Shown: piece by piece, positions 846 through 21,616 of the stretch
How the letters are laid out: each line of letters opens with the position of its first letter
Numbering within the stretch: the stretch's first letter is position 1
Assembly (NCBI RefSeq): GCF_000022485.1
Contig: NC_012623.1
Coordinates: 1,452,501 to 1,516,500, forward strand
Source of the DNA: Sulfolobus islandicus Y.N.15.51
GTDB taxonomy: Archaea > Thermoproteota > Thermoprotei_A > Sulfolobales > Sulfolobaceae
Reading direction: 5' to 3'
Length of the DNA stretch: 64,000 nucleotides
Position numbers and translations under genes: made by a program
The notes under the pieces: generated by a model
Told to the model about the DNA's origin: nothing
Databases searched by the model: none
The model's input: the letters and a program-made list of their open reading frames with translations, nothing else

Positions 846-1223
846 GCCCTCTTGTCGTTAACGATTCTAGGCGGTCCGGTAAATCCTAAGTCAGCTGAGG
901 GTCGTATTACGTTTGTTTTTATGTAAAGGAATATTTATAATTTTTGTTTTTTAAAAGGTTTTATGCCAGTTTTTCCAATATATGATCTGTACTACATCTG
1001 CTAAATTCGTACCGTCATATACTAAACCTATTAACCCAGCGTTTTTACACCCACTTGGAGAATATAATGAGGGAATATTGGTGTGCCAATTAAAGCCTCA
1101 GTATAAGAGTTAACTAGACTCAGTCATTTACAATATTTACTTGCCTTTCCCCATCCAATTGGGAACAATTCATAAAGTGCTTGCATCACTTAGTGTTCGA
1201 GATTGTTTTAAAGATTCCTCCTT
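846..1223. other. Intergenic region after the rRNA
   Basis: No intact gene is visible. The first 80 bases probably belong to rRNA 3' processing. On the minus strand, roughly 1090-945, an open stretch of about 48 codons has protein-like composition (it includes NAGLIGLVYDGTNLADVV) but no start codon and no close upstream context. It may be a fragment of an older gene or chance. I cannot assign it. Confidence 0.4.
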
Positions 1224-1378
1224 CTATCTGTATTCTTGGAATTCTCATTATTCTGGGATCAAATAGCTGCGTTAAACAACGTTTACTGGGAAACAATAGG
1301 ATATTATGTAATACTAACCTTTGCTATAACTTGGATTGGGTCTGGAATGATTTACAGGATAAAGAAAAATCCAGTTAG
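1224..1378 (+). pseudogene. Inverted C-terminal fragment of a NiCoT nickel/cobalt permease
   Basis: The plus strand encodes about 45 residues, including FWDQIAALNN followed by a hydrophobic segment ending WIGSGMIYRIKK. This matches the pattern of the last loop and last membrane helix of NiCoT (HoxN/NixA) permeases, which end in FW..I..LN, a glycine-tyrosine helix and IYR. The neighbouring permease on the opposite strand stops exactly before this module. The fragment has no start of its own. The simplest reading is that it is the tail of the adjacent gene, flipped by a local inversion of about 130 bases. An unrelated second copy remnant is the alternative. Confidence 0.7.
1238..1372. repeat. 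Imperfect inverted repeat bounding the flipped permease tail
   Basis: The bases at 1238-1255 (ggaattctcattattctg) and the reverse complement of 1355-1372 (ggatttttctttatcctg) match at 14 of 18 positions. They sit at the two edges of the inverted C-terminal module of the nickel permease. They could be the recombining arms of the inversion. The AT-rich composition makes some similarity expected by chance, and restoring the full frame needs a one-base adjustment. Confidence 0.5.
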
Positions 1379-2308
1379 GTTGAACTCAGCTTGTAATAGT
1401 CCTAACAACTCTATTGTACCTATTCCAAACGCTATTAAAATTGATATTAGTGTTATCGTTAAGTTGTACCATATTTTTCTGAGTGGTGATAGGAATGCCC
1501 AGCCATAGGCGAACCTCATGAATAGACCATCAGTAGTGTCAACTAGTGACATTCCTAGTGAAAATAGGATTGGGTATAGTAAGATTATGTAGATTGGTAT
1601 GTGTATGTACGTTGATGATAGTATTGCCGATATTGATAGTATTGCCACTTCTGTCGCGGTGTCAAATCCTAGTCCAAAGAGGAATCCTACAATGTACATT
1701 TGCCATTGGTTTGTTATTATTTTGAACAACTTGTTAAAGTATTTATTCATGAAACCTCTTTTCTGTAATATTTCCTCTAGTTTTTGTTTGTCATATTTTC
1801 CTTCTTTATAAAACGAGTATAATTCGTAGAGTACTATTGTGTTTAGTAGGCCTAAAAGATAAAGAAATCCTCCACTTATTAGTGTCTCGATCAAATTTCC
1901 GGTGTTCTCGAGGGACGGTAATGAGTTAGTTACCAGCCTTGAAGCCATCATTACTGCAAGGGATAGTAAAATTACTACTGTTGAATGACCAAATGAGAAG
2001 AAAGTGCCAACGAAGACTGGATTCTTTCCTTCTTGTAACATTTTCCTAGTTACGTTATCTATTGCTGCCAAGTGATCAGCGTCTACTGCGTGTCTTAAGC
2101 CAAAGGTGTATGATAAAACTCCTAGTGTTATGAAGGTTCCTGTTAGCTCACCGCTGTCTGTGTTTAATGTTAGTGGTTTTTGCGGTAATGTGTATAGGAA
2201 GAGAAAAAGTAATGCTGTTAGTAATACGTTGAGTACGTAGAAAAGTGATAAGGTGACTAAATTTTTGTAACTAATTGTTTGTGTTAACGTATTGAGAATG
2301 GATCTCAT
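1352..2308 (-). CDS. NiCoT family nickel/cobalt permease, C-terminally truncated
   Basis: This multi-pass membrane protein is predicted to import Ni2+ or Co2+. The family signature RHAVDADHLAAIDN sits in the second helix and FSFGHSTVV and GFDTATE follow, all typical of HoxN/NixA. I chose the ATG at 2308 (product of 318 residues) because a TATA-like ttatat lies about 30 bases upstream; longer starts at 2338 and 2362 are possible. The frame ends soon after the LTG motif that normally precedes the last loop and last helix. That missing module is encoded on the opposite strand immediately downstream. Function of the truncated form is therefore doubtful. Confidence 0.85.
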   Translation of the reverse strand: MRSILNTLTQTISYKNLVTLSLFYVLNVLLTALLFLFLYTLPQKPLTLNTDSGELTGTFITLGVLSYTFGLRHAVDADHLAAIDNVTRKMLQEGKNPVFVGTFFSFGHSTVVILLSLAVMMASRLVTNSLPSLENTGNLIETLISGGFLYLLGLLNTIVLYELYSFYKEGKYDKQKLEEILQKRGFMNKYFNKLFKIITNQWQMYIVGFLFGLGFDTATEVAILSISAILSSTYIHIPIYIILLYPILFSLGMSLVDTTDGLFMRFAYGWAFLSPLRKIWYNLTITLISILIAFGIGTIELLGLLQAEFNLTGFFFIL

Positions 2309-2493
2309 CGCATATATGGATTGTCTATCCATCATATAAATTTTTCTACTATTCTGAAGCAATCCACAAGGCAGTTATTTCATGGTCTTGTGTAAGTTAT
2401 AGTACAAGTTTTACTGGTTTCAATAACCTAAAATGCTGTAAATTGTAGAATATTTGATTAAAAGCTTATTAACCTAAATTGTTCTTTCATATT

Positions 2494-20464: not shown

Positions 20465-21616
20465 TACTCCTCACCTTTAGGAATTTGTGCTGATTACTGT
20501 AAGCAGAAAACACCGTATAGTACTCAATCAAAATAGAAGATACTAATAATCCAATTAGTCCAGCTATGAATGGATAGACGACCGATAATGGATACCAGTA
20601 GACATCGTATAAATAATAATAAGCTATATATACTATTAATGGAATTATACCTATTACCAGAAACGGTAATATTAGCAGCTTAAAACTTCTCTTCTCGTCA
20701 ACTCCATTAATTATGAATAGTGCCAGAACGTTTGAAAATCTACTTCTAATTCTAAATATAAGGAGTAATGAGATCAGAATGTAAATGGTTTCGACTATTT
20801 CTGAGGTAGTCCTTAATGAGTTAAGCTGAAAATACGAAAATGTAAACGAGGAACCAAATCGAGTTATAGAATACCAGTCTGAAAGCGGTAAACCTTCGTA
20901 TTTTGTATTAGATAAGAAAGCTTTGAATTCATTTAAAGCAGTATAATTATCTTTAAGAATTATAACATTATCTAATGAGTTTATAGTGTAGTTTATATTA
21001 GTTAAAGGTAAGATAGCAAATCCTTCTGCGGAAAAGAACGCGTTATATAATATTCCAATAACTCTTAAACTTATGATATTTTTTCCCATATATACACTAA
21101 CGTTCTCACCTAGCTGAAGATTAAGCTGATTCATTTTACCAGCTACCAAATATACTCCATATTCTGGATATCTACCTATTGCGATCATAGAGGAAATAGG
21201 AAATATTTTCTTAGCCAAACTTAAATTATTTATTGCAATAGCCTCAACTATAGCTCCACCAAGTCTAGCCCCTATATAAATATATCCAAAAGGTGCTAAA
21301 GAATTATTACTCTATAGTTGGTGGACTTAAATATAAAGTTAATTTATTTATCAAAAGGTGCTAAAGAATTATTACCGAAGAGCCTTTCTAACTGATTTAT
21401 TACTAAAGTATTGTTATTACCGGCTATACTTACCACATATAGATTGCTATAACTCGTTGCTCTAACTTGATATATGGTTAGGGAACTAAATAAGGCAAAA
21501 AAGAAAAGGTGCAAGATTGGAAGAAATAATAAAAGAATTAATAAAAATATTACTAAATCTCTTATACTATTTCTTGTTAAGAATTGTTTAAAAATAGATT
21601 TAAGCATATTTAGCAC
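20457..21616 (-). pseudogene. FtsX-like ABC permease broken by a 65-base insertion
   Basis: Two open parts belong together. The N-terminal part (to 21344) has a first membrane helix and the start of an ectodomain; the C-terminal part (20457 to about 21286) has the rest of the ectodomain, which includes the segment RYPEYGVYLVAGKM, and three helices in an FtsX/MacB-like layout. Between them lies a 41-base insert flanked by a 24-base direct repeat (21287-21310 and 21352-21375). Deleting one repeat plus the insert (65 bases) joins the frames exactly and gives a protein of about 364 residues. As written, translation ends at 21344. It is cotranscribed with the ATPase. Confidence 0.75.
21287..21375. 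repeat. 24-base direct repeat flanking a 41-base insert
   Basis: Positions 21287-21310 and 21352-21375 are identical 24-mers. The 41 bases between them show no terminal inverted repeat and no coding capacity. The structure resembles an unusually long target-site duplication around a tiny remnant, or the scar of an element that left imprecisely. Recombination between the repeats would restore the permease frame. Confidence 0.85.

Follow-up and report, generated by a model that had tools for sequence, protein, structure and literature searches.

In the window (the whole 64,000-nucleotide stretch of DNA that was analysed), the last coding segment of a nickel-cobalt permease (NiCoT) gene has been turned round, very probably by a one-off fixed mutation that combined a 122-bp microinversion with a 37-bp loss on its distal side. 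Fixation of the inverted state in the population is assumed, because a single genome carries it. The gene is located on the minus strand and is convergent to the rRNA, as positions 1-857 cover the 3′ portion of an archaeal 23S rRNA. The truncated ORF matches the Pfam family NicO (PF03824) over positions 2-256 of 287 (E-value = 2.9e−99), and its score of 332.5 bits against the curated cut-off of 27.7 places it within the family. Its NicO domain is nevertheless incomplete: the match stops at 256/287, and positions 256-285 lie on the opposite strand. As originally predicted, the reading frame ends just past an LTG motif. The C-terminus reads ...LLQAEFNLTG-FFFIL before the stop codon, LTG being the last native residues and FFFIL a novel sequence. 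The missing C-terminal module was likewise found where it had been expected, on the plus strand beyond the stop: an ORF at position 1236 carries LFWDQIAALNNVYWETIGYYVILTFAITWIGSGMIYRIKK, which in a profile search matches the C-terminal NicO positions 256-285 (E-value = 4e−4). The window gene resembles NiCoT/HoxN-type nickel-cobalt permeases in its strong match over positions 2-256 and in having the RHAVDADH motif, but differs from them in being devoid of the C-terminal last segment kept by all other full-length copies found. No solved structure matching the permease by sequence was found. Coordinates of the features are collected in Table 1.

Table 1. Features of the NiCoT locus (window coordinates; junctions are marked by slashes)
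Feature	Position	Strand	Remark
Truncated NiCoT (NicO) gene	1352..2335	-	327 codons from the first ATG at 2335 to the stop at 1352; the open frame (ORF 1352-2362) runs on to TTG at 2362
Inverted block	1247..1368	+	originally encoded the C-terminus; now antisense to the remaining gene; inverted match to G003
Downstream flank	1013..1243		colinear with and 100% identical to G003
GAG (gene direction)	1244..1246	-	three bases at the distal junction; replace 37 bp present in G003
Proximal junction GGATT/TTTC	1366..1370	-	1-bp microhomology
Left arm, imperfect inverted repeat	1238..1255		14/18 with 1355-1372; derived state only
Right arm, imperfect inverted repeat	1355..1372		14/18 with 1238-1255; derived state only

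The rearrangement is best seen by comparison with G003, a genome of the same genus with an intact NiCoT gene that ends with ...EFNLTGLFWDQIAALNNVYWETIGYYVILTFAITWIGSGMIYRIKKIE followed by the stop codon. The inverted block matches G003 in the opposite orientation with 99.2% identity over 122 bp (a single difference, E-value = 5e−56), so the flip is not a chance resemblance, and its plus-strand frame (1248-1367) reads LFWDQ...IYRIKK. The adjoining stretch, 1363-2900, matches G003 directly with four differences, one of which (1367) is at the junction, and flank identity is 99.7%. Thus, of the 130-base inversion proposed in the original prediction, the local inversion itself stands and is polarised by relatives, but a simple 130-bp exchange does not, since 37 bp were lost and 3 bp were added; neither does the event extend over 1224-2308. 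Over the first 20 kb, the window genome and G003 differ in 53 of 19,948 bases (99.7% identity). In the roughly 63 kb compared with G003, this was the only such microinversion seen; two further short inverted matches in this region are 38-44 bp long, 86-87% identical and about 2 kb away from the colinear position. The window-genome assembly contains no second copy of the NiCoT locus in the native orientation. Since the inverted state rests on one assembly, an assembly or sequencing artefact might be considered, but it is very improbable: both sides of the locus are 99.7-100% identical to an independent genome (G003), a deletion and a few changed bases, as typical of real microinversions, are present at the junctions, and the window genome is nearly complete, consisting of two contigs.

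The native orientation together with the C-terminus is also present in two further genomes, G005 (82%) and G006 (75%). Moreover, among 147 genomes of the order, 25 further full-length matches to NicO were found, each of which reaches query position 358 or beyond; none ends naturally where the window gene does (query position 324), and their C-termini, when aligned, follow the same pattern as the G003 protein. A scan of named genome contigs matched only one distant MAG. In G002 the corresponding rRNA-side region is masked with N, so absence of the gene from that genome is not claimed. Judging from these sequences, the inverted state of the window genome is the derived one, and is recent with respect to the tract shared with G003, because the gene of G003 is intact and the C-terminus is kept in all 25 other full-length copies.

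The same comparison resolves both junctions to the base. Read along the gene, the window sequence is CTAACTGGATT/TTTCTTTATCCTG...GATCCCAGAATAAT/GAG/AATTCCAAG. In an alignment with G003, GGATT concludes the left flank; the source of the inverted block extends from ATTATTCTGG to GGATAAAGAAAA, and the match to the right flank begins again 37 bp past the end of this source. The ancestral ATT (about 3 bp) has therefore been used twice: it closes the left flank and recurs at the block's far end. The missing 37 bp (TAGAGTAACCACAAAGGGTGAGGCAATTTTCCTCACT in G003) include the native stop codon and a short hairpin, and must have been lost in the window lineage, because the native stop and the downstream ACCACA stretch are common to G003 and G005. 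GAG occurs at more than one place within these 37 bp. With 37 bp lost, 3 bp added and about 3 bp duplicated, the present arrangement is not the product of a conservative exchange. A gapped 7-nt outer inverted repeat (TGGATTA / TGGA-ATTA) can be aligned across the event, but such flanking microhomology is weak: its score is reached in 11% of random pairs, so it is not taken as evidence. We also considered whether an insertion sequence (IS) was involved where the 37 bp are missing. With 0-3 occurrences per genome in the genus, however, the hairpin-like motif AAAGGGYGAGGC...YCTCA does not make a clear mobile-element signature.

To judge by the junction sequences, the event probably arose by replication template switching or by microhomology-mediated/error-prone break repair. 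The window sequence can be assembled from a left, an inverted and a right fragment of its close relative, which are exactly the fragments described by the four-point template-switch model (PMC7954356). Under this model, the polymerase would have left its template at GGATT, switched to the opposite strand, synthesised about 120 nt in the reverse direction and come back about 37 nt downstream, with GAG representing either a small further step or three bases added without a template. For microinversions of primates, microhomology-based break repair has been proposed (PMC8755829), and its product would look alike; template switching and error-prone end joining give the same product and are hence indistinguishable here. 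The window event shares with the published template-switch microinversions (PMC7954356, PMC8755829) the replacement of a short segment by its reverse complement, copied bases, a small junction loss and descent visible between close relatives. In contrast to the definite microinversions between human and chimpanzee, which span 17-33 bp (PMC8755829), the block is longer, and its flanking repeats are not above chance. No archaeal example of a microinversion or template switch surfaced in a limited search of the open-access literature. The event is ordinary biology, cleanly documented: an archaeal microinversion that is polarised, with junctions known to the base and a 99.7% identical ancestor-like relative, should be useful for studies of template switching in archaea.

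The inversion had been attributed to an imperfect inverted repeat matching in 14 of 18 bases and was thought to be possibly a reversible switch, with a fixed event as the fallback. In such a switch (inverton), a recombinase would flip the 122-bp block between the inverted repeats, toggling between full-length and truncated permease. The repeat does exist at the ends of the present block, and 14 or more matches out of 18 were reached in 23 of 3000 samples of comparable region pairs. Furthermore, mismatched repeats of 10-20 nt are common at known invertible sites, whose recombinases may be encoded elsewhere (PMC5903667), so that neither the quality of the repeat nor the lack of suitable neighbours is alone sufficient against a switch. 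However, the repeat spans the derived junctions and is not supported as the cause of the inversion: across the breakpoints of uninverted G003, the best 18-mer pair matches in 11 of 18 bases, the commonest chance value, and the segment is thus not bounded by repeats in both orientations. Reversibility was assessed by simulating flips in 30 registers. When flipped at the repeat arms, the gene had a frame of 384 codons ending in an unrelated tail (ILGSNSCVKQRLL...), and every tested position within the arms gave an out-of-frame tail (ILGSNSCVKQ...), because the repeat is shifted by 7 bases relative to the native register; the native tail returned only in other flip registers, e.g. a+b=2617. Given the loss and duplication of DNA at the junctions, the exchange was not exactly reversible either. 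A profile search of the genome detected no tyrosine (PF00589) or serine (PF00239) recombinase inside the window; all five tyrosine and 19 serine recombinase matches are outside it, the nearest about 37 kb past its end, so that an enzyme acting from a distance is conceivable. Frame, missing DNA and ancestral sequence do most of the work here, making a switch hardly credible, and the non-conservative junctions together with the ancestral G003 sequence speak for the fixed event.

Chanin et al. 2024 (Nature 634:234; cited in PMC11868660) reportedly describe intragenic invertons, in which inversion within a coding sequence swaps a full-length and a truncated product. The NiCoT locus resembles these in both respects but differs in that repeats are not kept in both orientations, flipping at the repeat does not restore the frame, the junctions are non-conservative and no recombinase was found in the window. 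It is just as hard to believe in a rare recurrent flip of an archaeal metal permease, with both orientations coexisting in some populations and leading to strain-level loss of Ni/Co uptake, and no evidence favours the flip as a regulatory device.

The one-off mutation removed the last hydrophobic segment of the permease, IGYYVILTFAITWIGSGMI, whose 19-residue Kyte-Doolittle mean of 1.58 is just below the cut of 1.6 used. NiCoTs are described as eight-segment proteins (PMC2667541), and the 327-aa product deprived of its last transmembrane segment is likely impaired or dead. Alternatively, the permease could do without its C-terminus, the truncated form being a variant that is functional or altered in specificity. 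The reading frame stays open as far as the junction and has only three further differences to G003 in the compared upstream stretch, so no further decay is visible; yet too little time has passed since the event for decay to have built up, and the lost part, the last hydrophobic segment, is retained by all other full-length copies of the order. We thus regard a functional variant as unlikely. The same genome encodes a second, intact NicO gene (C1:2288486-2289535; L059), which may make loss of the truncated copy tolerable. A match to the resolvase family (serine recombinases) is located at 2290811, about 1.3 kb from this second gene. As regards annotation, the NiCoT copy in the window should be marked as truncated, and the ORF starting at 1236 on the plus strand does not represent a gene.

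The locus is part of a longer tract of high identity. Positions 1013-21310 of the window (G000:C1, about 1441.7-1473.8 kb) are 99.73% identical to G003, and the rest of the window is 85-92% identical; upstream, the two genomes are 97.5% identical at C1:1441696-1445512 and about 90.6% identical ahead of this segment. This pattern suggests that two species recently exchanged roughly 30 kb of DNA that span the rRNA operon. At the right end of the high-identity tract there is a 66-bp insertion relative to G003 (21287-21375), flanked by 24-bp direct repeats (CAAAAGGTGCTAAAGAATTATTAC). In addition, about 43 bp just 5′ of the NiCoT start (2335-2377) resemble a multi-copy sequence, of which about 18 further copies are present in G003 among the matches listed. 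Several of the copies precede an ORF starting with MGKSKYKRDWSKYDE, and the sequence is possibly an IS end providing the promoter.
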